From the NCBI GenBank assembly GCA_902762615.1, contig CACWOX010000019.1, positions 1 to 40,418 of the forward strand: DNA of 40,418 nt, given 5' to 3'. Shown piece after piece: positions 15,001-34,140 of this stretch. The DNA is from an uncultured Ruminococcus sp. GTDB lineage: Bacteria; Bacillota; Clostridia; Oscillospirales; Acutalibacteraceae. The translations under genes were made by a program, and so were the position numbers. The stretch's first letter is position 1. Each line of letters opens with the position of its first letter. The notes beneath the pieces are model-generated. The model was given only the letters and a program-made list of their open reading frames with translations, made no database searches and was not told where the DNA came from.

Positions 15001-15050
15001 TAATATCATCCTTTCACCGATACAGAACCGTCAAATATATCATTATTAAC

Positions 15051-15126: not shown

Positions 15127-15156
15127 TTGACATATATAACTAATGAATGTTATAAT
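15127..15156 (+). promoter_or_regulatory. Consensus promoter of the six-gene surface operon
   Basis: TTGACA (15127-15132), 18 bp, TATAAT (15151-15156) preceded by TGT (extended -10). The transcript begins near 15163 with a leader of ~75 bases and an AGGAGG ribosome site at 15225-15230. Confidence 0.85.
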
Positions 15157-17097: not shown

Positions 17098-18360
17098 ATG
17101 GTTCCAACTTTTCATTTTATTTATATCGACCCAGGCACAGGCAGCATGCTCTTTACGATACTGATAGGCGTGCTGAGTGCGGCTGCCTATTTCCTGCGCA
17201 ATTCCATCATGAAGCTGCGGTTTATTTTCAGTCTCGGCAAGCAGGAAAAGACTGAAAACGATAATAATGTGCCTTTTGCGATATTTACCGACAGCAAGCG
17301 CTACTGGAACATATTCAAGCCTATCTGCGACGAGTTTGAAAAGCGCGGACAGCAGACGGTGTATCTGACAGCTTCGCCGGACGATCCCGCTCTCAGCGAA
17401 AATTACGAGCATGTTACGGCTCAGTTCATCGGTGAAGGCAACAGGGCGTTTGCACGCATGAATATGCTCAAAGCCGATGTTGTGCTTTCGAGCACACCGG
17501 GAGTGGACGTGTACCAGTGGAAGCGTTCCCGCAATGTGAAATGGTATGCACATATTCTTCACGCGGCTAACGATGTGACGGCTTACAGAATGTTCGGCAT
17601 AGATTACTATGACGCCGTGATGACCTCGGGAGAATATCAGGCAAAGCAGGTGCGTCAGCTCGAAGAACTGCGTCATTTGCCCGAAAAGGAACTGCCTATG
17701 ATAGGCTTGCCTCATATGGACGCGCTGCGTGAAAGACTGCTGAACGCCGGAGAGCTGCCGGAGCATCCGGTGACGGTGCTGCTTGCTCCTTCGTGGGGAC
17801 CGAGCAGCATACTCAATAAATTCGGCTCCAAGATGATAGATGCTTTGCTTAAAATCGGCTATCATATCATCATCCGTCCTCACCCGCAGTCATTTACCTC
17901 TGAAAAAGCCATGCTGGACGAACTGATGGAAAAATACCCGGACAGCGATACGCTCGAATGGGACAGCAGCAATGATAACTTCGAGGTGCTCAGACGTTCC
18001 GACATACTCATTTCGGATTACTCGGGCGTTATCTTCGACTTTGCGCTGGTCTTTGACCGTCCGATTATTTATGCCGATACTTCATTTGACAAAGGTCCCT
18101 ACGATGCGTGGTGGCTGGAGGACGAGATGTGGACATTCTCTATCCTTCCGCAAATCGGCAGGCAGCTCACCAAGGAAAACTTTGAGACGGTAGGCGAACT
18201 GATCGACGGCTGCCTGAATGCCCCCGAGCTTGCCGAAGGACGCAATAAGGCGCGTTCTGACACATGGGCGAATATCGGCAATTCCGCCTCGCTTGCGGTA
18301 GATTATCTTATTGAAAAAAGGCAGAAGCTGCTTGACAGCAAGGAAGCTGCCGCAGACTAA
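17098..18360 (+). CDS. TagB/TagF-like CDP-glycerol glycerophosphotransferase family protein
   Basis: 420 residues. A membrane segment lies at about 15-33, after IDPGTGSM. The rest resembles the GT-B fold of wall teichoic acid primases and polymerases: H152 and H155 in AHILHAAND, RPHPQ at 260-264, and the signature SDILISDYSG (301-310) followed by DFALVFDRPIIY. These enzymes transfer polyol phosphate from CDP donors at the inner membrane face. At 420 residues it is close to TagB size, much shorter than TagF. GGGAG lies before the ATG. The upstream nucleotidyltransferase may supply its donor, or a donor for the genes that follow (inference). Confidence 0.85.
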   Translation: MVPTFHFIYIDPGTGSMLFTILIGVLSAAAYFLRNSIMKLRFIFSLGKQEKTENDNNVPFAIFTDSKRYWNIFKPICDEFEKRGQQTVYLTASPDDPALSENYEHVTAQFIGEGNRAFARMNMLKADVVLSSTPGVDVYQWKRSRNVKWYAHILHAANDVTAYRMFGIDYYDAVMTSGEYQAKQVRQLEELRHLPEKELPMIGLPHMDALRERLLNAGELPEHPVTVLLAPSWGPSSILNKFGSKMIDALLKIGYHIIIRPHPQSFTSEKAMLDELMEKYPDSDTLEWDSSNDNFEVLRRSDILISDYSGVIFDFALVFDRPIIYADTSFDKGPYDAWWLEDEMWTFSILPQIGRQLTKENFETVGELIDGCLNAPELAEGRNKARSDTWANIGNSASLAVDYLIEKRQKLLDSKEAAAD

Positions 18361-18400: not shown

Positions 18401-21214
18401 ATGAGCTTTTTTTCGTTTTTATATAAGCTGATATTAGGTCCGCTTGTAATGCTTTTTGATGTTACCTATACGACATTATATTACATTACAATGGATATAG
18501 GTATATCCATCATCTTTTTGAGCCTCACAGTCAATTTACTCATATTGCCGCTGTACAGACGCGCTGACGCTTTGCAGGAAGAAGAAAGAGTCAGAACAGA
18601 AAAGCTGAGTCGTGGAGTAAAGCATATTAAAAAAGTATTTAAGGGCGACGAACGCTTTATGATGCTCCAGACCTATTACAGGCAGAACAGCTACAAGCCA
18701 TATTATGCCCTCAGCGGCTCACTTTCGCTGCTATTGGAGATTCCGTTTTTTATCGCGGCTTATCATTTTCTATCGAATCTCGATCTGCTCAACAACGCAG
18801 CGTTCGGTTCCATCCGTGATTTAGGACAGCCGGATGCAATGCTGCATATTGCGGGTCACGCAGTTAATCTGCTGCCGATACTCATGACGGCAATCAATAT
18901 TGTCTCGGGCATCATCTACACCAAAGGCATGCCGATCAAAAGCAAAGCGCAGCTCTACGGTATGGCACTGATTTTTCTTGTGTTCCTTTATTCTTCTCCT
19001 TCGGGATTGGTGTTTTACTGGACGCTTAACAATCTGTTTTCTCTGGTCAAGAATGTATTTTACAAGATCAAAAATCCCAAGCTGGTGCTGTGCGTAATAT
19101 GTGCTTCAATAGGCTGCATCGGTCTGCCGTACATATTATTTGTCAAGCCAATGAGAACAACGGGATTGCAGCTTTTTTCTGTAGCGGGTTTGCTCCTTAT
19201 GACCGTCCCGTTGATCGTTTATTATGCGGTAAAAAAATACGGTATTTCATTTAAACTGTCAGATAACGCGGTATCCAAAAAGGTAAATGTAACCTTTCTG
19301 ATTTGCTGTGTGTGTATGACGGTATTTACCGGCATTCTGATTCCTTCGGCTGTGATCAAAGCTTCTCCTGCCGAATTTGTCAGCGTTTCCGATTTTCACA
19401 ATCCTCTCAGGTATGTGGTCACTTCATTTGCTCTGGCTGCGGGAACGTTTATGATATGGATCAACGTTTTTTACCGATTGTCGTCAAACGCTGCCAAAAG
19501 AGTGATCTGTTTGGCGGGAGTTATTGTTTCATTATCAGCGGCAATTGATTATATGTTCTTTGGCAAAAATTACGGGAACATGTCGTCACTGATGGAATAC
19601 GATAATCTGCCGATCGTGGCAAAGTCCGATGTATTAATCAATGCGGCTGTTTTATTGGCGCTCGCCATCATTGTTTGTTTCGTGTGGAAGATACGCTTTT
19701 CCATAACGCAATCCGTGGCTTTTGCATTATGCGGCGCTGTCGTTATTATGTCATGCGTGAATATTTTCTCGGTGCAGGTTGAGGTTTCCGACCTTCGCAC
19801 TACATTGCAGAGAAAAGACTATACCAGAGGCATTAAGCTGACTTTGGATAAGAACGGCAAAAATGTCGTCGTATTCATGGTGGACAGGGCGATCAGCGAT
19901 TACTTTCCTTACATCATAGAGGAAAAGCCCGAGTTGAAAGAGCAGTTTGCGGGATTCACATTTTATCCCAACACCATTTCATACGGCAATTGCACCCTGC
20001 TGGGGTCCCCAGGGCTTTTCGGCGGCTACGAATATACGCCCGAGGAAATGAACAGGCGTGACAGCCTGACACTTATAGAAAAGCATAACGAAGCGTTGAA
20101 ACTGATGCCTGCCCTTTTTTCGGAAAACGGATATAAAGTGACGGTGTGCGATCCGCCGTTAGCCAACTATTATTGGATTCCCGACCTGACGATTTATGAC
20201 GAATATCCCGATATAAACACCTATGTGACAAAGGCAAAGCTGCTGGATGTTAACAGCTTAACCCGAACCGAGGAACTTCGCAACCATAATTTTTTTGCGT
20301 ACAGCATATTCCGCTCGGCTCCGGTTTTGCTTCATAACGCTTTGTATCGCGGCGGATCATACAATCATTCCGGCAAATCCTTCCGTCTGGTAAGCAGCAA
20401 TATGTATGTCGCTGAAGGCAACATTGACGGCGTGGATTCCATATTTATGGGCTCTTACGGCGTATTGCAAAGCCTTCACGAGCTTACCGACATAAGCGAC
20501 GGTGATAAGGGCGCGTTTCTTATCATCGACAATGATACTGCCCACGACGTCACCATGCTTCAGGAACCCGAATATGAGCCTGCCCATTCTGTTGACAATA
20601 CAGCGTATGAAAAGGAACATGGCATACGCCGCACAGCCGACGGAGACGAGCTGCAATTTGAAAACAAAACACAGCTCGTTCATTATCAATGCAATATGGC
20701 TGCCATGATACAGCTTGGCAAATGGATGGATTATCTGAGGGAAAACGGTTTGTATGACAATACAAGAATTATCATTGTGTCTGATCACGGATACGATCTG
20801 AATAATCTTTTCAATAAGACCGACGATAGTGCGGACGGTCAGTCAACCGCTTCACCGTTTGATATTTCAAGCTATAAGGCATTGCTAATGGTGAAGGATT
20901 TTGACAGCAGCGAGTTTAAAACTGACGGAACCTTTATGACCAATGCCGACACGCCTTCTATCGCCTTTAAAGGGTTGATAAAAAATCCTGTCAATCCTTT
21001 TACCGGAAAAAAGATCTCGTCGAAGATCAAAGACAACAACGAACATCATATCGCTTCCACTACTGTTATTTCACCGAATAATTATAAACGGGAGGAAAAG
21101 CAGTTCAAGAGCTTAAAATGGATTACGTTAACAGGAAATGACACTTTCGATGGCGGCGCATGGCAGGAAGCAGAAACAGCTTCTTCGGCAGCCAATGCCA
21201 ATCCGAAGGAATAG
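18401..21214 (+). CDS. YidC-like domain fused to LTA-synthase-like phosphotransferase, copy 1
   Basis: 937 residues. Residues 1-225 follow the YidC/Oxa1 core: a membrane segment into LLILPLYRRAD, the charged cytoplasmic hairpin EEERVRTEKLSRGVKHIKK, then SLLLEIPFFIAAY and SSPSGLVFYWTLNNLFSLVK. Residues ~228-458 add about seven membrane segments. Residues ~475-937 are an extracytoplasmic alkaline-phosphatase/sulfatase-fold domain: D495 in MVDRAI, nucleophile candidate T532 in GNCTLLG, H715 in NDTAHDV, and D795-H796 in SDHG. These match the metal and nucleophile set of LtaS/EptA phosphotransferases. The groove arginine of true YidC insertases is N45 here. A hydrolase rather than a transferase is possible. 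AGAGG lies 9 bases before the ATG. Confidence 0.85.
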   Translation: MSFFSFLYKLILGPLVMLFDVTYTTLYYITMDIGISIIFLSLTVNLLILPLYRRADALQEEERVRTEKLSRGVKHIKKVFKGDERFMMLQTYYRQNSYKPYYALSGSLSLLLEIPFFIAAYHFLSNLDLLNNAAFGSIRDLGQPDAMLHIAGHAVNLLPILMTAINIVSGIIYTKGMPIKSKAQLYGMALIFLVFLYSSPSGLVFYWTLNNLFSLVKNVFYKIKNPKLVLCVICASIGCIGLPYILFVKPMRTTGLQLFSVAGLLLMTVPLIVYYAVKKYGISFKLSDNAVSKKVNVTFLICCVCMTVFTGILIPSAVIKASPAEFVSVSDFHNPLRYVVTSFALAAGTFMIWINVFYRLSSNAAKRVICLAGVIVSLSAAIDYMFFGKNYGNMSSLMEYDNLPIVAKSDVLINAAVLLALAIIVCFVWKIRFSITQSVAFALCGAVVIMSCVNIFSVQVEVSDLRTTLQRKDYTRGIKLTLDKNGKNVVVFMVDRAISDYFPYIIEEKPELKEQFAGFTFYPNTISYGNCTLLGSPGLFGGYEYTPEEMNRRDSLTLIEKHNEALKLMPALFSENGYKVTVCDPPLANYYWIPDLTIYDEYPDINTYVTKAKLLDVNSLTRTEELRNHNFFAYSIFRSAPVLLHNALYRGGSYNHSGKSFRLVSSNMYVAEGNIDGVDSIFMGSYGVLQSLHELTDISDGDKGAFLIIDNDTAHDVTMLQEPEYEPAHSVDNTAYEKEHGIRRTADGDELQFENKTQLVHYQCNMAAMIQLGKWMDYLRENGLYDNTRIIIVSDHGYDLNNLFNKTDDSADGQSTASPFDISSYKALLMVKDFDSSEFKTDGTFMTNADTPSIAFKGLIKNPVNPFTGKKISSKIKDNNEHHIASTTVISPNNYKREEKQFKSLKWITLTGNDTFDGGAWQEAETASSAANANPKE

Positions 21215-21237
21215 CGAAAAGAAAGAGGATACAGATG

Positions 21238-24027
21238 ATGAGCTTTTTTTCGTTTCTATACAATCTGATATTAGGACCGCTTGTCTTGCTTTTTGATATA
21301 GTATACGCCTTCATGTTCCGCATGACAAAAAAGGAAGGTCTGGCGATTATCGCTCTCAGCCTTGCCATCAACCTGCTGATACTTCCGCTCTACCGTCGTG
21401 CCGACGCTATGCAGGAGGAAGAACGGATTAGGTCAGAGCGGCTAAAGCGCGGTGTGGATCATATCAAAAAGGCATTCAAGGGCGACGAGCGCTTCATGAT
21501 GCTCCAGACCTACTACAGGCAGAATGACTACAAGCCTTATTATGCACTCAGCGGCTCCATGTCGCTGCTGCTGGAGATTCCCTTCTTTATTGCGGCATAC
21601 AATTTTCTCTCGGAGCTGGATATTCTGGCTGGCGCATCCTTCGGACCGATCGCCGATCTGAGCAAGCCCGACGGACTGCTGCCTATTGCGGGACATGCCG
21701 TCAATCTGCTGCCAATACTCATGACGGCAATCAATATCATCTCGGGTATCATCTACACCAAGGGTATGCCGCTCAAAAGCAAGGTGCAGCTCTACGGCAT
21801 GGCTCTGATTTTTCTTGTATTCCTGTATTCTTCACCGTCTGGACTGGTTTTTTACTGGACGCTCAATAATCTCTTTTCTTTAGTAAAGAATGTCTTTTAC
21901 AAGATTAAAAATCCAAGGCTCGTTCTTTGTGCCATGAGCACCGTTTTCGCGGGAATCATGCTGCCCTGCATGCTGATTTGGAGTCCGATAGACACTATAC
22001 GCATGAAGCTTTTCACGACGGGAGCACTGGTTCTCATGCTTACCCCGCTGCCGCTTTATTATCTCTTCAAAAAGCGTGGCGGTCTGTCATATAAAATACC
22101 CGAGGCAAACAAGACCGACAATATTATATTTTACTGCTGCTGTGTGTATATGACGATACTGACCGGCATGCTCATTCCGTCTGCCGTGATAAGCTCTTCG
22201 CCGGAGGAATTCGTCAATGTGATTGATTTCCGTTCCCCCGTCGGATATGTGTTGAATGCCACAGCGCTTGCAGCAGGCACATTTCTCATATGGTTAAACA
22301 TATTTTATCGTCTCGCGTCACCTGCCGCCAGAAAGTGCATCAGTCTGGCTTCGGTTGTGGTTTCGGGCAGTGCAGTGATAAACTATATGTTCTTTGGCAA
22401 GAATTACGGCAACATGTCCTCTTTGCTGCAATATGACACCATCAGATACACCGCAAAAGCCGACTATCTGCCCAATACATTTGTGCTGCTGCTTTTCGGC
22501 GTTCTGATTGTCCTGCTGCGCAAAAAGTCTCCTGTCATTATTCGTTCGGTAAGTTTAGCGGTATGCGCTGCGCTTTTTATCATGTCCTGCATGAACATCG
22601 TCTCCATACAATCGAGCGTCAATGACATGAAGGACTCATTGTCCGAGATAACCAGCGATCAGGGAATCAGCTTTCATCTCGACAAAAAGGGCAAAAATGT
22701 CATCTTTGTCATGATGGACAGAGCCATAGGCAATTTCTTCCCCTACATTATGAATGAAAAGCCCGAGCTGCAAGAGCAGTTTGCAGGGTTCACATTCTAT
22801 CCGAATACCATTTCATACGGCAACTGTACCATGCTGGGCTTTGCCGGACTCTACGGCGGGTACGAATATATCCCCGAGGAGATGAACAAGCGTGACGAGC
22901 TGACCATTGCACAGAAGCAGGACGAAGCACTCAAAATAATGCCCTCCATCTTTCTCGACAGCGGCTATGATGTGACGGTCTGTGACCCTACAATGGCGGG
23001 TTTCCACTGGACGCCGAATTTGAGCGTATTTGACGATTACCCCGCGATAAAGCGGTATATCACCAAAGGAGTGCTGGGCAAGAACGGCGATCAGAAGTCA
23101 ACCGAGAAGCTGCTCAACAGGAATTTCTTTGTTTACAGTCTTTTCCGCACATCTCCGTCGGTGCTTCATCTCTCCATATACAACAAAGGTCTTTACAATC
23201 ACTCGGGCAAGTCAAAGGGCATACAGGTGATAGATAATATCTACACCGCAAGCGGCGGGTTCGACGGCACCGATTCACTCTTTTCAGACGCCTACAGCGC
23301 ATTGAAGAGCTTTTCTGCCATAACTAAGGTAAGCGACAGCGGAAAAAACACCTTTCTCATGATCAGCAATGACACAGCTCACGATGTTGTCATGCTGCAA
23401 GAGCCGGAGTACGTGCCTTCGGATAATGTAGACAATACCCAATTTGAAGAGAATCCTCCGGTGCGCTACGCCGCGGACGGAAGCAAGCTGGTGTTCAAGA
23501 CAGCAAAACAGCTCACCCACTACCAGTGCAACATGACCGCAATGATACAGCTTGGCAAATGGCTTGATTATCTGCGGGAAAACGGCGTATATGACAACAC
23601 TCGAATCATCATTGCAGCCGATCACGGCAGGAATCTCGATTATCTCTTTGACAAATGCATTGAAAACGGCAAAGACAATACCCACACTGCGATACACGAC
23701 GCCCTGATATATGATCCTCTGCTGCTTGTCAAGGATTTCGGAAGCACAGAGCTGACGACTGACGACACCTTTATGACAAATGCCGATACGCCGACCATCG
23801 CATTCAGCGGTCTGATAGAGCATCCTGTCAATCCGTTTACAGGCAAAGAAATCAATTCAGACGGCAAGAACGTACCTGTTCATCATCTGGCGGGCACAAG
23901 AACGTGGTCGATCGACGATTACAAGGGCGACGAAAAGAAGTACAGAAGCGTTATCTGGGTTGAACTGAAGGGAAATGACACCAACGATATGAGCGCATGG
24001 CGCGTGATAGGCAAAAAGCTGAAGTAG
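21238..24027 (+). CDS. YidC-like/phosphotransferase fusion, copy 2
   Basis: 929 residues from the ATG at 21238, matched to the start of copy 1 and giving the same 9-base spacing from AGAGG; an ATG directly before it and an open frame to 21160 (inside copy 1) are less likely. Same domain order. Differences: the nucleophile loop reads GNCTMLGFAGLYGG, the DHG motif is in AADHGRN, the metal Asp is in MMDRAI, and the Arg-position is Asn in AINLLILPL. The YidC-like third is the best-conserved part; the membrane middle and the substrate-facing loops of the catalytic domain vary most. Confidence 0.85.
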   Translation: MSFFSFLYNLILGPLVLLFDIVYAFMFRMTKKEGLAIIALSLAINLLILPLYRRADAMQEEERIRSERLKRGVDHIKKAFKGDERFMMLQTYYRQNDYKPYYALSGSMSLLLEIPFFIAAYNFLSELDILAGASFGPIADLSKPDGLLPIAGHAVNLLPILMTAINIISGIIYTKGMPLKSKVQLYGMALIFLVFLYSSPSGLVFYWTLNNLFSLVKNVFYKIKNPRLVLCAMSTVFAGIMLPCMLIWSPIDTIRMKLFTTGALVLMLTPLPLYYLFKKRGGLSYKIPEANKTDNIIFYCCCVYMTILTGMLIPSAVISSSPEEFVNVIDFRSPVGYVLNATALAAGTFLIWLNIFYRLASPAARKCISLASVVVSGSAVINYMFFGKNYGNMSSLLQYDTIRYTAKADYLPNTFVLLLFGVLIVLLRKKSPVIIRSVSLAVCAALFIMSCMNIVSIQSSVNDMKDSLSEITSDQGISFHLDKKGKNVIFVMMDRAIGNFFPYIMNEKPELQEQFAGFTFYPNTISYGNCTMLGFAGLYGGYEYIPEEMNKRDELTIAQKQDEALKIMPSIFLDSGYDVTVCDPTMAGFHWTPNLSVFDDYPAIKRYITKGVLGKNGDQKSTEKLLNRNFFVYSLFRTSPSVLHLSIYNKGLYNHSGKSKGIQVIDNIYTASGGFDGTDSLFSDAYSALKSFSAITKVSDSGKNTFLMISNDTAHDVVMLQEPEYVPSDNVDNTQFEENPPVRYAADGSKLVFKTAKQLTHYQCNMTAMIQLGKWLDYLRENGVYDNTRIIIAADHGRNLDYLFDKCIENGKDNTHTAIHDALIYDPLLLVKDFGSTELTTDDTFMTNADTPTIAFSGLIEHPVNPFTGKEINSDGKNVPVHHLAGTRTWSIDDYKGDEKKYRSVIWVELKGNDTNDMSAWRVIGKKLK

Positions 24028-24064
24028 CGGCTATGCACAGGAAAAATTAAAGAGGAATTGTACC

Positions 24065-26848
24065 ATGAATTTATTCTCATTTTTGTATAAGCTGATTATC
24101 GGTCCGCTCACCCTGCTGTTCGATGTCATTTACTCAACGATATACTACATCACCTTCAACAACGGTATTTCTATCATTATCCTGAGCCTTGCCGTTAATT
24201 TTCTTATTCTGCCGCTTTACAGACGTGCAGATGCGCTCCAGGAGGAGGAAAGGCTGAGAAATGAACATCTCAGCCATGGCGTAAAGCACATCAAGAATGT
24301 ATTTAAGGGCGACGAACGCTTTATGATGCTTCAGACCTATTACAGACAGAACGACTACAAGCCGTATTATGCCTTGAGCGGTTCGCTGTCACTTCTGCTT
24401 GAAATTCCTTTCTTTATCGCAGCGTATAATTATCTCTCAAATCTTGATCTTCTGAACAAATCGGCTTTCGGCCCCATACATGATCTGGGGCAGCCCGACG
24501 GTCTGCTGCATATAGCGGGTCACGCAATCAATCTGCTGCCGATACTCATGACGGCAATCAATATTATTTCGGGTATCATTTACACCAAAGGCATGCCGCT
24601 TAAAAGCAAGATGCAGCTCTATGGCATGGCGCTGATTTTTCTTGTATTTCTGTATTCGTCGCCATCGGGTCTGGTGTTTTACTGGACGCTTAACAATCTG
24701 TTTTCTCTGGTCAAGAATGTATTTTACAAGATCAAAAATCCCAAACTGGTGTTGTGTGTGATAAGCGCCGCCATCGGCTGCATCGGTCTTCCGTATCTGT
24801 TGTTCATTCATCCTATGAGAACGATGAAGATTCAGCTTTTTGCGGTGGGCTGCATGGTGCTGATGCTGCTCCCGATTATCGCTTTTCTCTTTCTCCGAAA
24901 GGTCAAAATTCCCTTTAAGGTCGGCAATGCTACCACAACCGACAATGCCGTATTTCTTGCGTGCTGCATTTTTATGGCGCTGCTCACCGGCGTGCTTATT
25001 CCGTCAGCCATAATCAAATCCTCACCTGCCGAATTTATCAATGTGCAGGATTTCAGGTCACCGCTCAGATATGTGGCACATTCTCTCGCGCTGGCGGCAG
25101 GCACATTTTTGGTGTGGATGAATGTGCTCTACCGTCTGTCGTCGGCAGGCGTCAGAAGAATTCTGGCAATTTGCGGAGTGGCAATATCCGGCTCCGCGGT
25201 GGTCAATTATATGTTTTTCGGGAGCAGGTACGGACAGCTGTCGTCGCTGCTTCAATATGACAATATTCTGTACAGCGTGCAGTCGGATTATATCATCAAT
25301 ACTGTCGTTCTTATCGCGCTGATCACCGGGCTGTATTTTGTGTGGAAAAACCGCCCTCAGATCATCAAAGCGGTATCCTTTGCGTTATGTGCCGCGACAG
25401 CAATCCTTTCATTGGTAAACGTGGTTTCCATCAAGCTGGAAACAGATAAGATGAGCGGAGTGCTTTCTGAACTCACCTCAACATCGGGCGTTGATATTTC
25501 ACTTGACAAAAACGGGAAAAACGTTGTCGTCATTATGCTTGACAGAGCGATAAGCGATTTCTTCCCATACATTATAGAGGAAAAGCCGGAGCTAAAAGAG
25601 CAGTTTGCGGGATTCACTTATTATCCCAACACGATTTCCTACGGCAACTGCACGCTTGTCGGCGCTCCGGGACTTTTCGGTGGATACGAGTACATTCCCG
25701 AGGAAATGAACAGCAGGGGCGATCAGACTATTCCGGAAAAGCACGATGAAGCGCTCAAGCTGATGCCCGCGATTTTCTCTCAGAACGGATACGAAACCAC
25801 TGTATGCGATCCTCCGTTTGCGGGGTACAACTGGATACCCGATCTGAGCATTTACGACGATTATCCTGATATTAAAAGATACAATGCCAAAAGCCTGTTT
25901 GCCGACAACAGCAACGCAACGCTGTCGGAAGATCCTCTCAACCGGAATTTTTTTGCTTACAGCATAATGCGTTCTGCGCCGGTACTGCTTCATCTGCCGC
26001 TTTATAACAAAGGCGCTTACAATCATTACAGCAAGATAACCTATCAGATTTTTGACGATATGTATACCGCTCACGGCAGCTTTTACAATGTTGACTCGTA
26101 CTTCATAGGCGCCTACAACACACTCAAGGCACTCCCTTCTGTCATAACAGTGAGCGATAACGGTAAGGGCAGCTTTGTGATGATGGCGAATGATAGTGCG
26201 CATGACGTTGTTATGCTCAGTGAGCCGGAATATGAGCCATCTCTGGAAATCAACAACAGAGCGTATGAGGAAGAACATAAGATCCGCCGCACAGCGAACG
26301 GAGATGAAATGGAAATAACAACTGTCGATCAGATGATACACTATCAGTGCAATATGGCTGCCTTCATTCAGCTCGGCAAATGGATGGATCACCTCAGAGA
26401 GAACCAACTGTATGATAACACAAAAATAATCATTGTGTCAGATCACGGAAGAAATCTGAGTTACATGTTTGACGGAAAAATCACAGAAGGAGCGGACGAT
26501 AAATATGACGGTTTTGACAGTGTAATGACCTACAAGTCGATGCTTCTCGTCAAGGATTTCGGTAGCACGGAGCTGACAACCGATGATACTTTCATGACCA
26601 ACGCCGACACACCCTCTATTGCGTTTGACGGTCTGATTGATGACCCTGTGAATCCATTCACTGGCAACAGAATAACCGCCGAAAAGAAAAATGCAGAAGA
26701 GCATCATATTGCCGATTCAAAGCTCAACATGTCGTTTGATTACAGCGGAAATGAAAAGAAATTCAAGCAGATAACATGGCTCGGATTAAAAGGAAACGAA
26801 TCTTCCGATATCAGCTCATGGCGCATAATAGGAAATGAATTAAATTAG
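24065..26848 (+). CDS. YidC-like/phosphotransferase fusion, copy 3
   Basis: 927 residues. Same order of YidC-like bundle, seven further membrane segments and catalytic domain. Catalytic candidates: MLDRAI, GNCTLVGAPG, NDSAHDV and SDHGRN; Asn replaces Arg in AVNFLILPL. It shares FMTNADTPSIAF near the end with copy 1. It differs from copies 1 and 2 in having ND-S-AHD where they have ND-T-AHD. The gap from copy 2 is 37 bases, with AGAGG near the ATG. Confidence 0.85.
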   Translation: MNLFSFLYKLIIGPLTLLFDVIYSTIYYITFNNGISIIILSLAVNFLILPLYRRADALQEEERLRNEHLSHGVKHIKNVFKGDERFMMLQTYYRQNDYKPYYALSGSLSLLLEIPFFIAAYNYLSNLDLLNKSAFGPIHDLGQPDGLLHIAGHAINLLPILMTAINIISGIIYTKGMPLKSKMQLYGMALIFLVFLYSSPSGLVFYWTLNNLFSLVKNVFYKIKNPKLVLCVISAAIGCIGLPYLLFIHPMRTMKIQLFAVGCMVLMLLPIIAFLFLRKVKIPFKVGNATTTDNAVFLACCIFMALLTGVLIPSAIIKSSPAEFINVQDFRSPLRYVAHSLALAAGTFLVWMNVLYRLSSAGVRRILAICGVAISGSAVVNYMFFGSRYGQLSSLLQYDNILYSVQSDYIINTVVLIALITGLYFVWKNRPQIIKAVSFALCAATAILSLVNVVSIKLETDKMSGVLSELTSTSGVDISLDKNGKNVVVIMLDRAISDFFPYIIEEKPELKEQFAGFTYYPNTISYGNCTLVGAPGLFGGYEYIPEEMNSRGDQTIPEKHDEALKLMPAIFSQNGYETTVCDPPFAGYNWIPDLSIYDDYPDIKRYNAKSLFADNSNATLSEDPLNRNFFAYSIMRSAPVLLHLPLYNKGAYNHYSKITYQIFDDMYTAHGSFYNVDSYFIGAYNTLKALPSVITVSDNGKGSFVMMANDSAHDVVMLSEPEYEPSLEINNRAYEEEHKIRRTANGDEMEITTVDQMIHYQCNMAAFIQLGKWMDHLRENQLYDNTKIIIVSDHGRNLSYMFDGKITEGADDKYDGFDSVMTYKSMLLVKDFGSTELTTDDTFMTNADTPSIAFDGLIDDPVNPFTGNRITAEKKNAEEHHIADSKLNMSFDYSGNEKKFKQITWLGLKGNESSDISSWRIIGNELN

Positions 26849-26875
26849 TTTCTCCAATGAAAGAGGTATTATTAC

Positions 26876-29659
26876 ATGAACTTTTTCGCCTTCTTGTATA
26901 AGATTGTACTCGGGCCACTTGAACTGCTGTTTGACTCTGTTTTTTCATTGATTTATTATGTTACTCTGGACAAAGCTGTTTCGATTGTGACACTAAGTCT
27001 GGCTGTTAATTTTCTCATACTTCCTCTTTACAGGCGTGCTGACGCTCTGCAGGAAGAGGAACGCCTCAGAAATGAAAAGCTCAGTCCGGGTGTCACGCAT
27101 ATCAAAAAGGTTTTTAAGGGCGACGAGCGCTTTATGATGCTCCAGACGTATTATCGCCAGAATGACTACAAGCCCTATTACGCGTTAAGAGGCTCTTTGT
27201 CTCTGCTTTTGGAAATACCGTTTTTTATTGCGGCGTATAATTATCTTTCAAATTTGAAGGAATTGAACGGCGCTTCATTGGGACCTATCCAAAACCTCGG
27301 TCAGCCTGACGGCTTGCTGAATATTGCCGGTCACGCGATTAACCTTCTGCCGATACTCATGACCGCCATTAACATCATATCGGGCATTATTTACACCAAA
27401 GGCATGCCGTTAAAGAGTAAGATTCAATTGTACGGAATCGCGCTAATATTTCTTTTGTTTCTATACTCGTCGCCTTCCGGTCTGGTCTTTTACTGGACGC
27501 TCAATAACCTGTTTTCGCTGGTCAAAAATCTGTTTTACAAATTTAAAAATCCAAAGCTCATAGTGTACATTACATGTTTTGCAGTTTCTTTTCTGATGTT
27601 GCATCATGTTATTTTCGTCAAGCCAATGATAACCTTGAAAAGACAGGTGTTTGTTATAGGCTGTATACTTTTACTATGCGTCCCTCTGGTGGTATATCTG
27701 ACTAAAAAGGCGTTTAAAATCTCCCGAAAGGTTACTGAGGCGACTAAAACCGATCATATAATTTTTTATGCCTGCGTCATTTTTATGACGTTTCTAACAG
27801 GTGTGCTGATCCCGTCAGCCGTTATCAAGGCGTCTCCGGAAGAATTCATATCCATTTCCGATTTTCATACGCCGCTGAGATATGTGGTTCATTCCTTTGC
27901 TTTGGCTGCCGGTACGTTCATGGTCTGGATGAACATATTTTTCCGGCTTTCAGATTCTCCCTCCAGAAAAAAGCTCAGTCTGTGTTCGGTGATTATATCC
28001 TGTTGCGCAGCGGTCAATTATATGTTCTTCGGCAAAAACTACGGGAACATGTCATCTCTGCTCCAATATGACAATATCATGGAAGGCGCTAAGTCTGATT
28101 ACTTCATCAACACGGCAGTCCTCATACTTCTTGCAGTCGCACTATTCCTGTTGTGGAAAAAGCGAGATGTGGCGGTTCAGTCTCTATCGTTAGCATTATG
28201 CGCAGCTGTAATAATTATGTCAGGCGTAAATGTCGTCTCCATACAGCTTTCGACTAACAAGATGAGTCAATCATTGCAGAGTGTAAGAACCAATCAGGGA
28301 ATAACGCTGCCCCTCGATCAGAAAGGCCAAAATGTCATTGTCATCATGATGGACAGAGCAATCAACGAATATTTCCCGTATATCATTGAGGAAAGACCTG
28401 AGCTGAAGGAGCAATTTGCAGGATTTACCTATTATCCCAATACCATTTCATACGGCAACTGTACGATGCTCGGTTCGTCAGGTTTGTTCGGAGGTTATGA
28501 ATATATTCCGGACGAGATGAACAAGCGTGACAGCGAAACCATTGCCGCAAAGCACGATGAATCGCTCAAGGTTATGCCTGTGCTGTTTTCTCAGAACGGC
28601 TTTGAAACGACAGTCTGTGACCCGCCTTTTGCCGGATTTCAGTGGATTTCTAATATTGGCATTTACAATAATTATCCCGAAATTAACAAATATCTGACAA
28701 AGGAAAAATTTGTGGACGACAGCAGCATGGAACAGACCGACAGTCTGAGAAACCGTAATTTCTTTGCTTACAGCATCATGCGTTCCTCTCCTGTAGTGGC
28801 ACATTTGACACTGTATAACAAAGGGCTCTATAATCACTGCGGAACAGAGTCCGGACAGGTGATAGATGATATGTACACCGCCCACGGAAGTCTTGACAGC
28901 GTTGACTCTCTCTTTACAGGCTCTTACAGCGTCCTGAAAAAGCTGCCCGAACTTACCGACATACGCAGCAGCGGAAAGAATACCTTTCTGATGATCGACA
29001 ACGATTCCACCCACGACGTAGTCATGCTGCAGGAACCGCAATACGAAACGGCTGATCCTGTGGACAACAGGCAATACGAAGCGGAGCACGGCGTCCGACG
29101 CAATGCTGACGGTGATGAAATGACATTCACCACCGCAAAGCAGATCATGCATTATCAATGCAATATGGCGGCGATGATAAAGCTTGGACAGTGGATGGAT
29201 TATCTGCGTGAAAACAATGTTTACGATAACACAAAGATTATCATTGTCTCCGACCACGGAAAGGATCTTGATTATTTGTTTGGTGAACACATCACCAACG
29301 GCAAGGAAAATCTGTCGCGCACAGAGGATGACGTCATATTATATAAGGCGCTGCTTCTGGTAAAGGATTTTGGCAGCACCGAGCTTACGACCGACAATAC
29401 CTTTATGACAAATGCTGACACACCGTCACTTGCCTGTGAGGGACTGATAGATAATCCTGTCAATCCGTTCACAAATAAAAAAATCACAATGGATGACAAG
29501 AATAAAGAAGAGCATTTTATCGGCAACTCTGAGATTTACAACCCGTATGATTATAAAGAGGGTGAAACACAGTTTAAAGAAATAAAATGGTTAGGGTTCA
29601 AAGGAACTGATTCATCTGATTTAAACGCATGGCGAATCATAGGCGACAGTCTGGATTAG
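26876..29659 (+). CDS. YidC-like/phosphotransferase fusion, copy 4
   Basis: 927 residues, last gene of the operon. Domain order as in copies 1-3. Catalytic candidates: MMDRAI, GNCTMLGSSG, NDSTHDV and SDHGKD; Asn in AVNFLILPL. The conserved GGYEYIP(D/E)EMN after the nucleophile loop and VNPFT near the end are shared by all copies. After its TAG the chromosome continues only about 40 bases before the transposon, which separates the operon from the convergent hairpin at 34440-34498. Confidence 0.85.
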   Translation: MNFFAFLYKIVLGPLELLFDSVFSLIYYVTLDKAVSIVTLSLAVNFLILPLYRRADALQEEERLRNEKLSPGVTHIKKVFKGDERFMMLQTYYRQNDYKPYYALRGSLSLLLEIPFFIAAYNYLSNLKELNGASLGPIQNLGQPDGLLNIAGHAINLLPILMTAINIISGIIYTKGMPLKSKIQLYGIALIFLLFLYSSPSGLVFYWTLNNLFSLVKNLFYKFKNPKLIVYITCFAVSFLMLHHVIFVKPMITLKRQVFVIGCILLLCVPLVVYLTKKAFKISRKVTEATKTDHIIFYACVIFMTFLTGVLIPSAVIKASPEEFISISDFHTPLRYVVHSFALAAGTFMVWMNIFFRLSDSPSRKKLSLCSVIISCCAAVNYMFFGKNYGNMSSLLQYDNIMEGAKSDYFINTAVLILLAVALFLLWKKRDVAVQSLSLALCAAVIIMSGVNVVSIQLSTNKMSQSLQSVRTNQGITLPLDQKGQNVIVIMMDRAINEYFPYIIEERPELKEQFAGFTYYPNTISYGNCTMLGSSGLFGGYEYIPDEMNKRDSETIAAKHDESLKVMPVLFSQNGFETTVCDPPFAGFQWISNIGIYNNYPEINKYLTKEKFVDDSSMEQTDSLRNRNFFAYSIMRSSPVVAHLTLYNKGLYNHCGTESGQVIDDMYTAHGSLDSVDSLFTGSYSVLKKLPELTDIRSSGKNTFLMIDNDSTHDVVMLQEPQYETADPVDNRQYEAEHGVRRNADGDEMTFTTAKQIMHYQCNMAAMIKLGQWMDYLRENNVYDNTKIIIVSDHGKDLDYLFGEHITNGKENLSRTEDDVILYKALLLVKDFGSTELTTDNTFMTNADTPSLACEGLIDNPVNPFTNKKITMDDKNKEEHFIGNSEIYNPYDYKEGETQFKEIKWLGFKGTDSSDLNAWRIIGDSLD

Positions 29660-29917: not shown

Positions 29918-30157
29918 TTAAAAGGGTGCACGGTACATGATCTTGTAATCACCGGCATTGTGAATGGGATGGGGCAATTCATACCTGTCGAGAATATCGA
30001 GCATAAGCAGGGTCATCTCGTCGTGGGACATATCATCCAGTTCACCGTTTTCAAAAAGGTCGTCGTAAGTAGTGTCAATCTCGCGTCTGGCGTCGCCGAG
30101 ATCGAGTCGGCGGAGCAGCCAGATCATCAGAATGTCATGCAACTGTTCGCTGTTCAC
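29918..30157 (-). CDS. Small acidic transposon protein, unknown function
   Basis: 79 residues from a GTG that overlaps the ATPase stop (GTGA), so translation is probably coupled; the frame is open further upstream but that overlaps the ATPase. The protein is acidic (DLGDARREID, ENGELDDMSHDE) and predicted mostly helical. I do not recognise a family. Position as the last gene after the DDE transposase and ATPase suggests an accessory in transposition or target choice, as such elements often carry a third small gene. Confidence 0.55.
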   Translation of the reverse strand: MNSEQLHDILMIWLLRRLDLGDARREIDTTYDDLFENGELDDMSHDEMTLLMLDILDRYELPHPIHNAGDYKIMYRAPF

Positions 30158-30966
30158 TGACTCATCCCCGTAACTTCGTTTTCGAGTACAATATCTACGG
30201 ACTTGCTGTCTATGCAGTTCTGTTTCATCTGGGAACCGTAAATCAAAGACTGACTGCATGCACGGTTGATGAGTCTGGGATTGCCGCCGGAAAAATCAAA
30301 AATGGAACGAATGGCGTCATCGGTAAAAATCGGACTTTCATGACCGGAGTATTGGATTTGGGACTGAATATATTGCTTGGTATCGGCAAAATCCATGGGA
30401 GTGAGAAAGCATTCAATGTCAACACGTTCGAGTATGGCACGGTACGCGGAGAGCCGCAGTTTGTCCCATAATTCCGTCTGACCGGAAAGAATCAGTGCCA
30501 AGGGATTTTCGGAATCCATCCTGTAATTGAGCAGGAAACGCGCTTCCTCCAGCATTTCTTTCGGAAGAAGGTGCGCCTCATCAACAATCACAACGGCTTT
30601 CCTGTTCTGCATACTGCGCATGATCTCAATCTGTTTGTGCAGCGCGTTTCGCGCCGTATTTCGGAGAAATTCAGATTTGCAGCCAAGCTGGTTGAGCATG
30701 TAATTGTAAAAACTGCGGGGCGTCAGTCTGGAATCGGAAACATACAGCACCATGTACTCTGATTCCGGAAGCTCGTCCTTGAGTCGTCGCAGCGTGCTGG
30801 TTTTGCCTGTGCCGGGTTCTCCGATCAGCACGGCAAAAAGCTGGTTCTTTGCCGTATAGCTCAGTCGGCTGAGCACCTCTGCGTTCTGGCGGGTTTTGTA
30901 CAGCGCGTTGCTCGGAATTCCCCGCACAAACGGAGTGTGCCTCATTCCGTAAAATGCTTCATACAT
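30154..30966 (-). CDS. ExeA/TniB/MuB-like AAA+ ATPase of the transposon
   Basis: 270 residues from the ATG at 30966, with GGAGG 9 bases upstream; two further ATGs lie just before it. It overlaps the transposase stop by 8 bases. Begins MYEAFYGMRHTPF, typical of the ExeA-like transposition ATPases. Walker A is GEPGTGKTST, Walker B VVIVDEAHLL, sensor LILSGQTELW, and the C-terminal FSGGNPRLIN segment follows. These proteins bind DNA with ATP and direct or stimulate the DDE transposase. The frame is intact. Confidence 0.85.
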   Translation of the reverse strand: MYEAFYGMRHTPFVRGIPSNALYKTRQNAEVLSRLSYTAKNQLFAVLIGEPGTGKTSTLRRLKDELPESEYMVLYVSDSRLTPRSFYNYMLNQLGCKSEFLRNTARNALHKQIEIMRSMQNRKAVVIVDEAHLLPKEMLEEARFLLNYRMDSENPLALILSGQTELWDKLRLSAYRAILERVDIECFLTPMDFADTKQYIQSQIQYSGHESPIFTDDAIRSIFDFSGGNPRLINRACSQSLIYGSQMKQNCIDSKSVDIVLENEVTGMSQ

Positions 30967-32293
30967 CTTCATCATCCTCCATTGCATGAGAATAAGAGAT
31001 GACCGCGCGGTGTTCCCGTTCGCCCGCGGTGCGTGATACGGCGTCAAGAAGCCGCGAACTGTCTGCGGGAATGCGGTCGATTTCCGCCTTTTGCGGTTTC
31101 TTCGCAACATGGGTACCCACCTTTGCGGGTTCCGCATAAAAAGGTTCATGCCCCTTTGGTTCAATCCGTACTTTCGCAATATTCTGCGGATCATAAATCA
31201 CGTCGACCTGCTGTCCGGCATACAGTATGCCGACGTCGTAATCCTTGCCCATGAAGCTGATGCAGCCGGATTTGTTGACCTTGCGTGCCTCGCAGTGCAG
31301 AAAGGCGTTTGCAAGGATTGACTCGTCAGGATAATTCAGGGGCATGGAATCGCTCTTGAACGCGCGTTCGGGGGTAGTGCCAAGAGCGCTGTGAATCTTG
31401 TGGTGATAGCATTCCGAGAGCCACGCGCCAAACAGCTTGTTAAGCTCCTCGATGCTTTCAGGGGGGTTGATCTCAATTTCAGCAAGGAACGAGTCAACTG
31501 TGAGATTGAAGCGCTCCTGCTTGCCTTTTCCCTGAGGATTGCGCGGTTTTGCCTACAGAAGCCGTACGCCGAGCAGACCGCAGGCGCGTTTCATCCAATG
31601 CGTCCGGTATTGTGAACCGTTATCAAAGTAGATACGGCGCGGAAGACCGAATTTCTGGATTCCCTTTTTCAGCGTGTCTTCCACAATGGTCTGCTCCATG
31701 TCTCCGTAAAACTGCGCGTGAATAATGTAGCGCGTAGCGTCGTCAATCAGGCAGGACATGTATGTTGGCTGCACTTTTCCGCCGATTCTCAGCGTCGGAC
31801 CGTATTTGATATCGCCCTGCCAGAGATCACAGCGATGCGCTCTCGCAAAACGCTGTGAAGCATATCCGTTGTCCTGATACATCTTCATCATCTGGGAAGA
31901 ATAGCCTTCTCTGGCAAGCGCATGCTGTAATGTCGTGCGTTTCAGTACATCCTCCTCCACTTTTCCCTCCAGTTCAAGGATGCGGATAATGGTGGGAACG
32001 CTGCGGGACGGTACTTCACGGCGCAGTCGGATAGCTTCCTCAAGGATTTCCCTGGAAATGACGGGGTTCTGCTGGGGTACTTTGCCCTTTGGCTGCAAGC
32101 CGTCCATACCCGACTCATTGTAGGCGTCCACATAACGCTGGAGCGTTCGTGTGGAAACCTCGTATTCCGCGGAGATCTCACGGCGCTTGGCATAATATTC
32201 TTCCTGCGATGAGAGCGCACCAATCAACGGCGCAATCATCATCATGCGTCGTTCCGCGATTTCTTTTGCTGCTTTCTGGTCTTTCATGCCCAT
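30959..32293 (-). pseudogene. DDE transposase interrupted by an amber codon
   Basis: One frame of 445 codons broken only by TAG at 31555-31553. N-terminal part: helix-turn-helix STRTLQRYVDAYNESG (about 50-65), first Asp in LWQGDIKYG, second Asp in IYFDNGSQYR. The stop falls right after GVRLL; downstream the frame resumes with AKPRNPQGKGKQERFN, holding the catalytic Glu. Relatives usually have Tyr at this position, so one TAC/TAT-to-TAG change would explain it. The upstream fragment lacks the third catalytic residue and should be inactive. AAGGAGG lies before the ATG at 32293. Confidence 0.85.
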
Positions 32294-32324
32294 AGAGGCA
32301 CCTCCTTGTTTGGTGTTGCCTCCA

Positions 32325-32837
32325 TCATATCATAGAAAGACCTGACAGTATACGTGAACTCGTTGATTTCCATTCGCCCACGTTTACCACCACTCTGACA
32401 AAATATCTGAGCTTATCCAGCGTGGAAAAGGTATCGTAATTTGTCACAAGAGTGGGGTGCTCCAATTTCAGTCGTCTGACTGTTGCCGCACCGAATCTGA
32501 AAAAATCTTTGATCCAGCGTCGGAGACCGGCTGCTGTGTGGTCGTCCACACAATAGTTTTTCGTCGCATCATAGGCCTCGGCGAAAATTTTCGCGCAGAG
32601 GTGCTTGTAGGGTATTACATAGTCCGGCAGTTCACGGTGATAGCGGTGGCATTTGGGACAATAGAGCACCCTGAGAGACAGCCCTTCACGTTGTCCGCTT
32701 TCATTGCGCACATACCGTCTGCATCTGCCGTGCACGTTCATCCTCCCTCCGCAATCGGGGCACGGCGCGGTTACTTTTCCTGTAATAATACAAATTCCGT
32801 CCTTGACATGTTTAAGAAATTGTGCTACAATGATCAT
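32325..32837 (-). CDS. Transposon-associated zinc-ribbon protein (DUF6431-like)
   Basis: 170 residues from the ATG at 32837; the frame is open to 32975, but that part lies in the nested IS630 copy and in leader DNA. Four cysteines in CPDCGG and YCPKCH form a likely zinc ribbon, followed by HRELPDYVIPYKH and a helical C-terminal half. I recall this pattern as DUF6431, found beside DDE/ExeA transposon genes. First gene of the transposon operon; no strong ribosome site is seen. Role in transposition is inference. Confidence 0.7.
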   Translation of the reverse strand: MIIVAQFLKHVKDGICIITGKVTAPCPDCGGRMNVHGRCRRYVRNESGQREGLSLRVLYCPKCHRYHRELPDYVIPYKHLCAKIFAEAYDATKNYCVDDHTAAGLRRWIKDFFRFGAATVRRLKLEHPTLVTNYDTFSTLDKLRYFVRVVVNVGEWKSTSSRILSGLSMI

Positions 32838-32888
32838 CGTTGGGGGCGATAGTCGTGTCATGAGGGCTAGTATAATATTTTTTAAATA

Positions 32889-34137
32889 ACTGGACTTTAT
32901 ATTCGTTTCATGATACAATAGATTTATCAATAGATGGAGGTATTGTACTATGGGACGAAAAGCAAGTGTAATCAACCTTACAATGGACGAGCGAGAGTAT
33001 TTGGAGACCCAGACCCGTGCTCGAACAATACAGGCTCAGACAGTGAATAGAGCCCGTATTCTGTTATTGAAAGCTGATGGCTGTTCTATCAATGATATAG
33101 CCGATAAGATCGGTATCAATCGCAAAAGCGTTATGCTCTGTCTTAAGAAATACGCGGAGGGCGGTGTCGAGAACGCTCTGTTTGACGCTCCCGGCCGCGG
33201 CCGCAATGCCGAGATCACAGATGATGAGAAAGCCTGGATCATCAACATTGCCTGTCAAAAGCCGAAGGATCTTGGATACTCTGCTGAAACCTGGACGTAT
33301 GCAAAGTTGACATCTCATATTAACAAGAATGCGGAAGAAGCTGGCTACATGAGGCTCTCTACGATTCACAAAAGCACTGTACATACGATTCTTGATGAGG
33401 CTGAAATCAAGCCATTTCGGATCAAATATTACTGCGAAAATCGTGACCCTGATTTCGACAGCAAGATGCATAATGTGCTTCTGGTGTACAAACAATTGTC
33501 CCTGCAGTTTGACGAGAACGGACAACTCCTGCCCTGGGAGGAAGACGAAGAGGTCGTCCATGTTCTTTCCTATGACGAAAAGCCTGGTATACAGGCGATT
33601 GCCACTACGTCAGAGGATCTGCTCCCTGATGAAAATCACAGCACGATCAGCAGAGATTATGAGTACAGGCGCCTCGGAACCCTGTCGCTCCTCGCGGGAA
33701 TCGATCTGCAGACCGGGGAGGCGATACCTTTGGTCAGCGAAACTCATAACAGCAAGGACTATATTGATTTTTTGAAGATACTTGATAACAAATATCCCAA
33801 GGGCGATAAGATCCGCTTGGTGCTTGATAATCTCAGAGTCCATTCTTCCGAGGAAACAAGAAAATACCTTGTGACGGTTCCCGGGCGGTTTGAATTCGTA
33901 TTCACGCCAAAGCATGGTTCCTGGCTGAACATGGTCGAAGGATTCTTCAGCAAGATGACCAAGCAAATGCTGCGTGGAATTCGAGTCAAGTCAAAAGCAG
34001 AACTGACTGATCGTATATATTTATACTTCCAAGAAGTCAATACGGAGCCTGTTGTATTCCACTGGAAGTACAACCTTGATGATATCGACATATCGGAAGA
34101 AGTCATCGTGGACACGCTACCGTTAAAAAAGTCCAGT
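32889..34137 (+). mobile_element. IS630-family insertion sequence
   Basis: Ends are ACTGGACTTT and its inverse AAAGTCCAGT, flanked by the duplicated dinucleotide TA (32887-32888, 34138-34139), as IS630/Tc1-mariner elements target TA. Length 1,249 bp with one transposase gene. It lies in the leader of the larger transposon, in the opposite orientation to the transposon genes. Confidence 0.9.
32891..32919 (+). promoter_or_regulatory. IS630 transposase promoter
   Basis: TGGACT (32891-32896, inside the terminal repeat), 17 bp, TACAAT (32914-32919) preceded by TGA. Transposase binding to its own end would cover the -35. Confidence 0.6.
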
Positions 34138-34140
34138 TAA
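32950..34140 (+). CDS. IS630-family transposase
   Basis: 396 residues. N-terminal helix-turn-helix (ILLLKADGCSINDIADKIG) and a second one at SVMLCLKKYAEGG; DDE residues in LSYDEKPG, LVLDNLRVHSS and SWLNMVEGFFSKM, intact. GGAGG lies 9 bases before the ATG. The last codon of the element encodes Ser; the stop TAA is made of the TA target duplication plus the next host base. The gene appears functional. Confidence 0.92.
   Translation: MGRKASVINLTMDEREYLETQTRARTIQAQTVNRARILLLKADGCSINDIADKIGINRKSVMLCLKKYAEGGVENALFDAPGRGRNAEITDDEKAWIINIACQKPKDLGYSAETWTYAKLTSHINKNAEEAGYMRLSTIHKSTVHTILDEAEIKPFRIKYYCENRDPDFDSKMHNVLLVYKQLSLQFDENGQLLPWEEDEEVVHVLSYDEKPGIQAIATTSEDLLPDENHSTISRDYEYRRLGTLSLLAGIDLQTGEAIPLVSETHNSKDYIDFLKILDNKYPKGDKIRLVLDNLRVHSSEETRKYLVTVPGRFEFVFTPKHGSWLNMVEGFFSKMTKQMLRGIRVKSKAELTDRIYLYFQEVNTEPVVFHWKYNLDDIDISEEVIVDTLPLKKSS

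Follow-up and report, generated by a model that had tools for sequence, protein, structure and literature searches.

A family of YidC-phosphatase fusions paired with a TagF-like protein, a candidate system for phosphoryl and phosphonyl tailoring of the bacterial surface

Introduction

Why should a YidC-like membrane domain be carried on the same polypeptide as a phosphotransferase-like domain? The question is raised by a stretch of 40,418 nucleotides from an uncultured Ruminococcus sp. (assembly GCA_902762615.1, contig CACWOX010000019.1), hereafter called the window. Four adjacent open reading frames (ORFs) of 937, 929, 927 and 927 residues each join a YidC-like domain to a C-terminal domain of the alkaline phosphatase fold. 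A first-pass annotation had given these four ORFs the positions and strand found here. Its domains and catalytic residues stand, but it took the four genes alone and overlooked two upstream genes, encoding P0006 and P0005, that join the run into an apparent six-gene operon (Table 1). It also knew of no described role for the fusion; among the matches listed for open-licence PubMed Central, no title or abstract start describes this fusion or the second type of YidC fusion reported below. Here, we find that the fusion is a real, recurring family, that P0005 is its partner and that genes for activated headgroups are linked to it. We propose, at a probability slightly above one half (about 0.55), a system that decorates the surface with phosphoryl or phosphonyl headgroups, either replacing LicD or acting beside it.

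The fusion is a recurring family

The four fusion ORFs lie on a single strand with intergenic gaps of 23-37 bases. In the alignment, copy 1 shares 60%, 63% and 61% identity with copies 2, 3 and 4, respectively. The Pfam model PF02096 (60KD_IMP, YidC/Oxa1) matches about residues 34-221 of all four copies above its curated cut-off (76-86 bits versus 35; E 4e-21 to 5e-24). Copies 1 and 2 pass the NCBIfam model yidC_oxa1_cterm (88.5 and 86.4, cut-off 84.3); copies 3 and 4 fall below it (83.7 and 77.1). The Pfam Sulfatase model is above cut-off in the four copies, with a best stretch of about residues 485-806 in copies 2-4 and of only 771-807 in copy 1. A sulfatase identity, as the model name implies, was rejected: the window copies have Cys531, yet position 531 varies whereas T532 is invariant.

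A scan of GTDB species genomes gave 247 pattern matches and 213 confirmed relatives, of which 80 were kept, yielding 75 loci. Four loci that repeat the window were left out, and the window and a fifth copy from its own genome were counted in; one locus (L034) gave no fusion ORF with the ORF picker used. Among these, 116 full fusions were found in 76 loci, 29 of which carry two to six copies. Counting the four window repeats, 120 ORFs have both halves, three have the YidC half alone and six the phosphatase half alone. The nine half-only ORFs comprise three contig-end cuts, three cut window copies, two adjoining ORFs of L046 that look like a single broken copy and one weak match (L055). A sequencing or gene-calling artefact is ruled out by the 116 intact ORFs. 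Going by record titles, hosts are mostly rumen and gut Clostridia, and the family also occurs in Eggerthellaceae, Coriobacteriaceae and metagenome-assembled genomes (MAGs) of Treponema and Spirochaetales; isolates include Butyrivibrio sp. INlla21 and X503. A plasmid origin was searched for in 72,556 plasmid records and no match was obtained at E 1e-20.

The halves are unequally conserved. Among the four window copies, invariant columns amount to 70% in the YidC half, 27% in the middle helices and 40% in the phosphatase half; over 16 rows, mean column identity is 71% in the YidC half and 54% in the phosphatase half. The ratio of nonsynonymous to synonymous substitution rates is about 0.07-0.17 in the YidC half, where five of the six pairs could be estimated, against one of six in the middle and none of six in the phosphatase half.

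Predicted structure and active site

AlphaFold2, fed with an alignment of 62 fusion rows (A2), produced a model with a predicted local distance difference test score (pLDDT) of 87.8 and a predicted template modelling score of 0.83. Its helices and alpha/beta domain lie where the first-pass annotation had put them, and Pfam, AlphaFold2 and Foldseek agree on the plan that it drew: a YidC core, about seven extra helices and a C-terminal alkaline phosphatase fold. We count five YidC core segments and seven other helices in the model, about twelve membrane helices altogether. The first ~225 residues, on which the earlier reading turned, are predicted to be YidC-fold; Foldseek matches this part to E. 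coli YidC (6al2) at 3.7 Å over 215 columns with 23% identity. The top Foldseek match of the fusion model is PbgA/YejM, followed by sulfatases, phosphonate monoester hydrolases, LtaP, MCR-1 and LtaS. Combining the helix count of the model with the known topology of YidC, we predict that the phosphatase domain is outside the cell; basic loops lie on the predicted cytosolic side.

The residues already singled out as catalytic, D495, T532, H715, D795 and H796, do not vary in any of the 62 aligned fusions, and neither do K832, D833 and D850. LtaS/EptA-type phosphotransferases use an acid, a threonine and a histidine in catalysis, and in the alkaline phosphatase superfamily a threonine nucleophile marks the transferase type. 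From the alignment, the acid, Thr532, the histidine and the Asp-His pair would form an LtaS/EptA-type active site with Thr532 as the presumed nucleophile. Curated LTA (lipoteichoic acid) synthase and EptA models do not match the fusions, NCBIfam at E values up to 0.001 giving YidC models only; a profile search of the phosphatase half against solved structures gave weak, short matches only. Like LtaS, LtaP, EptA, MCR-1 and PbgA, the fusion is predicted to display on the cell exterior a membrane-anchored alkaline phosphatase fold in which acid, Thr and His residues are conserved. It differs from them by its roughly twelve predicted helices, including a YidC bundle, and by its ties to P0005 and to cytidine diphosphate (CDP)-headgroup genes. 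The phosphonate monoester hydrolases among the fold matches could point to an outer domain that removes headgroups as a phosphodiesterase. This is scarcely probable, given the invariant threonine at the presumed nucleophile position and the pairing with a transferase and biosynthetic genes described below.

With YidC/Oxa1 insertases, the fusion has the fold and the Pfam family in common. In contrast to them, it carries an attached enzyme, coexists with a separate YidC kept in the window's genome, and forms its own long-branch clade. A basic residue in the hydrophilic groove of YidC is tied to insertase function. At this position, the 62 aligned fusions have Asn (57) or Ser (5); among 11 stand-alone YidC rows, five have Lys/Arg, one has Asn and five are unaligned there. 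Asn45 was dropped as a trait exclusive to fusions, because one stand-alone YidC also has it. Could the YidC domain act as a protein insertase devoted to its own phosphatase half or to a partner? Its clear YidC family and fold are in favor. Against this stand the Asn or Ser of all 62 fusions, despite the stand-alone YidC with Asn, and the retention of a separate YidC; to our knowledge, LtaS-type enzymes manage without a YidC fusion. We regard such an insertase as very improbable. For the family of 213 confirmed stretches, in which every member tested fits the YidC Pfam model, the data suggest that its members are not plain insertases.

P0005 is the partner of the fusion

P0005 matches PF04464 above cut-off (48.3 bits versus 22.1). 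Its model (pLDDT 85.5) has a single N-terminal helix followed by a two-domain fold, and the best Foldseek match is TagF with CDP-glycerol, many nucleotide-sugar enzymes coming next. P0005 thus has the fold and family of TagB, TagF, Bcs3 and Cps3D, but its 420 residues are fewer than those of the TagF (729), Bcs3 (1171-1173) and Cps3D (1149) chains. It also differs by its single N-terminal helix preceded by YIDPGTGSM and by its pairing with the fusion. The opening YIDPGTG is invariant in the family (16 of 16 rows) and the longer YIDPGTGSM almost so.

Searching for the fusion across genomes and tabulating its neighbors, as the first-pass annotation had advised, brought out this pairing and the headgroup genes. 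In 58 of the 76 loci, the fusion has a member of the P0005 family as its immediate same-strand neighbor, often with a gap of -4; the other 18 include some short contigs. P0005 is upstream in 48 pairs and downstream in 29. Genome-wide searches took 50 of 71 apparently distinct fusion-bearing genomes, and every one of the 50 encodes a P0005 relative of full length, with best matches of 518 bits or more. The window's order was sampled with 147 genomes, of which five have the fusion and six have full-length P0005, namely those five and G113. In G113 a YidC half starts directly downstream of P0005 and is broken off by the contig end after 224 residues; this genome was therefore counted as fusion-bearing, leaving a fusion-free background of 141. 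The only full P0005 match in the window's own genome is the window copy.

The TagF-like fold of P0005 and the LtaS-like outer domain might also describe a teichoic-acid-like system, with P0005 and the fusions as the makers of a polyol-phosphate polymer. However, P0005 scores far under the NCBIfam cut-offs for TarF and TarL (18.8 versus 550 and 18 versus 1000), the fusions lack an LTA synthase model match, and the linked pathway genes belong to choline, phosphoserine-type and phosphonate routes. We hold this polymer reading to be decidedly unlikely.

Genes for activated headgroups accompany the fusion

The N-terminal part of P0006 matches 6pd1, a nucleotidyl transferase/aminotransferase, and 1jyk, a CTP:phosphocholine cytidylyltransferase. 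Its C-terminal part, a pyridoxal phosphate (PLP) enzyme, has its best match in 6oux, which presumably acts on serine phosphate, and is most like threonine-phosphate decarboxylase; the CobD model gives 190.5 bits, below its cut-off of 290.55. The predicted product of P0006 is CDP-ethanolamine or a related CDP-amino-alcohol. The alternative of an aminoethylphosphonate enzyme is weakened by five of the six order-sample genomes with a P0006 relative, which lack phosphoenolpyruvate (PEP) mutase, and by the nearness of the PLP half to a decarboxylase-like enzyme.

Around the fusions, headgroup genes were grouped in clusters, with representatives alone named by Pfam: PEP mutase, phosphonopyruvate decarboxylase, aminoethylphosphonate aminotransferase, LicC-type/choline kinase and P0006-type. 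The L066 gene, which clustered with P0006, was left uncounted as it lacks the cytidylyltransferase part. Across whole genomes, PEP mutase (>490 bits) is found in 33 of the 50 fusion-bearing genomes, one cut by a contig end (G178) and one with an internal stop (G182), versus eight of the 141 fusion-free ones. Choline-kinase frames of 476-613 residues occur in 11 of the 50, adding six genomes (G158, G165, G166, G179, G188 and G189), and frames of about 600 residues add one fusion-free genome (G058). At any length, choline kinase exceeds the Pfam cut-off in 13 of 50 versus 10 of 147, the shorter frames being uncounted on both sides. A LicC half is shown by Pfam in the choline-kinase frames of L038, L073, L074 and L086; the Pfam scan did not find it in that of L039. 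P0006 relatives are present in 13 of the 50, adding G155, G167 (cut by a contig end), G191 and G192 (one internal stop), and in five fusion-free genomes; G162, with the second half only, was not counted. Altogether, 43 of 50 fusion-bearing genomes have at least one of the three routes, against 14 of 141 fusion-free ones (Fisher test 3e-23, kinship ignored).

Individual genomes illustrate each route. In G042, a LicC-choline kinase gene is located about 1.7 kb upstream of the fusion. A relative (L079) has a 2-aminoethylphosphonate aminotransferase by an NCBIfam equivalog model. In the window's own genome, PEP mutase and phosphonopyruvate decarboxylase are above the NCBIfam cut-offs, and the genes of locus L083 could allow it to make cytidine monophosphate (CMP)-hydroxyethylphosphonate. 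Its PEP mutase carries EDKxxxxxNS, given as the PEP mutase motif in a passage of PMC6697681.

P0006 relatives were also observed without the fusion. In the fusion-free genome G043, one adjoins a LicD gene and a Polysacc_synt gene; there, the supply enzyme of the fusion genomes is apparently served by LicD. No LicD-type neighbor of the P0006 relative was seen in the partly Pfam-scanned ORF lists of G050 and G022. The sole LicD seen is thus the one beside the P0006 relative of the fusion-free genome of L129, and no genome-wide LicD search was made. In two fusion-free genomes (L129:5956-8849 and L130:4609-7566) the P0006 relative has an octopine-dehydrogenase-like gene as its neighbor, a hint that the amino-alcohol may be modified further.

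A second fusion joins YidC to a TagF-like domain

ORFs of 623-711 residues that fuse YidC to a TagF-like domain were found in 11 loci (L090-L100). PF02096 is above cut-off in the six such genomes searched. In L090 both Pfam models pass; in L091 the YidC model passes and the TagF part is recognized by a P0005 profile (190 bits). Both loci adjoin genes for PEP mutase, a decarboxylase and an alcohol dehydrogenase, and L100 adjoins a LicC-type gene. The neighbor of L093 is a gene truncated where the contig stops; what remains of it aligns with the PEP mutase profile over the cytidylyltransferase stretch and nowhere else. Within the fetched stretches, no headgroup neighbor was seen for the other seven. 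YidC domains are thus tied to headgroup chemistry in two ways.

A tree of 46 YidC domains groups each type of fusion in one clade (99 in the Shimodaira-Hasegawa-like approximate likelihood ratio test), the phosphatase type on a long branch and the TagF type among stand-alone YidC rows, several of which are partial and long-branched; the tool warned of long branches meeting. The groove position is Lys/Arg in 11 of 11 YidC-TagF fusions. Two separate origins of the YidC fusions are likely.

A possible mechanism and its weighing

The proposed system would work as follows. In the cytosol, P0006, or the LicC-choline kinase or PEP-mutase pathways of relatives, would make a CDP- or CMP-activated headgroup. 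Membrane-anchored P0005 would move the headgroup onto a membrane lipid. The YidC-like domain would then let the charged lipid reach the outer leaflet, where the phosphatase-fold domain would load the group on Thr532 and hand it to a surface glycan or polymer. According to a preprint (PMC10491306), E. coli YidC has lipid-scrambling activity in vitro, as do other Oxa1 members, so a fused YidC bundle could expose a charged lipid outside. The earlier idea that the bundle handles a lipid-linked donor fits this evidence, the passage itself being our supposition. Tandem copies sharing one P0005 might serve different acceptors. Differing acceptor sites with a common donor site would yield the observed pattern, a conserved YidC half with the rest divergent among copies, and four related specificities for the four copies are plausible.

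The lic (phosphocholine) and Pnt (phosphonyl) systems likewise tailor surfaces from CDP-choline or CMP-phosphonate supplied by LicC/PntC-type enzymes. They use LicD, whereas the fusion system has a TagF-like enzyme and a predicted outward YidC-phosphatase fusion in its place or beside it. The membrane glycosylation systems of the CsbB/GtcA/YfhO type have three components. Their proposed logic is the same (load a lipid inside, flip it, transfer outside), but the fusion system would handle phosphoryl groups instead of sugars, with flipping and transfer on one polypeptide.

Several points weigh against this mechanism. Only 24 of the 76 loci have a headgroup gene at a distance of five genes or less from the fusion. 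Seven of the 50 genomes lack all searched routes (G154, G156, G159, G162, G169, G170 and G173). In the order sample, a route is found in four of the six fusion-bearing genomes (G000, G042, G073 and G141) and in neither G102 nor G113, and the 14 fusion-free genomes noted above do have one. The fusion-free background is one order while the fusion-bearing set covers several phyla, with relatedness uncorrected. The activities of all parts are predictions, and the lipid carrier is a hypothesis. The resemblance of the P0005 model to TagF suggests CDP-donor chemistry and leaves the acceptor unspecified. The direction of transfer and the nature of the acceptors would follow from the scheme, each chemical step of which we infer.

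EptA and LtaS take their groups from phospholipids. P0005 might thus tailor or prime an acceptor in the cytosol, while the outer domain adds a second group from an ordinary phospholipid and the YidC domain anchors or docks P0005. The nearest folds include LtaS, LtaP, MCR-1 and PbgA, and a YidC fused directly to a TagF-like domain fits docking. However, this scheme poorly explains the stronger conservation of the YidC half compared with the other parts, and it poorly explains the link to CDP-headgroup genes; we find it rather unlikely. Returning to lipid-mediated tailoring, we advance tentatively, at somewhat less than even odds, that the YidC fold was recruited at least twice, with an outward phosphotransferase and with a TagF-like transferase, as a lipid-passage module for phosphocholine, phosphoethanolamine or phosphonate groups.

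Surface tailoring with headgroups is known; its mechanism here is possibly new. Passages of PMC6697681 describe PntC enzymes and leave the later steps of phosphonyl tailoring open, calling them "enigmatic"; a term search of its main text found neither YidC nor sulfatase. The fusion and P0005 are concrete candidate enzymes for these later steps. The same proteins are candidates for tailoring surfaces with phosphocholine and phosphoethanolamine in the Clostridia of rumen and gut, in Eggerthellaceae and in Treponema MAGs. If the passage role is true, lipid scrambling by the YidC fold would have a dedicated biological use.

Features and surroundings of the operon

Table 1. Coordinates of the operon and of related loci in the same genome (window positions unless a locus is given; aa, amino acids).
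Feature	Position	Strand	Description
Promoter-like site	15127..15156	+	TTGACA, 18 nt, TATAAT; ahead of six-gene run
P0006	15237..17048	+	LicC/PntC-like cytidylyltransferase fused to PLP enzyme
P0005	17098..18360	+	Predicted one-helix TagB/F-like CDP-alcohol phosphotransferase, 420 aa, N-terminal YIDPGTGSM
YIDPGTGSM motif	17122-17148	+	P0005 residues 9-17; precedes single helix
Fusion copy 1	18401..21214	+	937 aa; YidC-like 1-228, helices 229-476, phosphatase-fold 477-922
YidC-like domain, copy 1	18401..19084	+	Asn45 at groove basic-residue position
Phosphatase-fold domain, copy 1	19829..21166	+	D495, T532, H715, D795, H796
Fusion copy 2	21238..24027	+	929 aa; start by alignment (mechanical ORF start 21160)
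Fusion copy 3	24065..26848	+	927 aa
Fusion copy 4	26876..29659	+	927 aa
Fifth fusion copy, own genome	L084:8738-11548 (contig C9)		936 aa; apart from operon
Phosphonate genes, own genome	L083:6789-11158		Cytidylyltransferase-PEP mutase, phosphonopyruvate decarboxylase, cytidylyltransferase-iron alcohol dehydrogenase

The promoter-like site is a consensus match only, 12 of 12 positions, with TG before the second hexamer. The region holds 47 promoter-like sites versus a mean of 26 in shuffles, and a further 12 of 12 site lies within copy 4 (28805-28834). The sole Rfam match is a tRNA. Just past the operon (30154-34140) are mobile-element genes encoding an AAA ATPase, an rve integrase (ORF of 246 residues), a DUF6431 protein and a DDE_3 transposase. 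On the other side, the minus strand (13456-15009) encodes a protein whose start resembles a signal sequence and which contains five to six SH3_3 repeats; its gene adjoins the promoter-like site of the operon.

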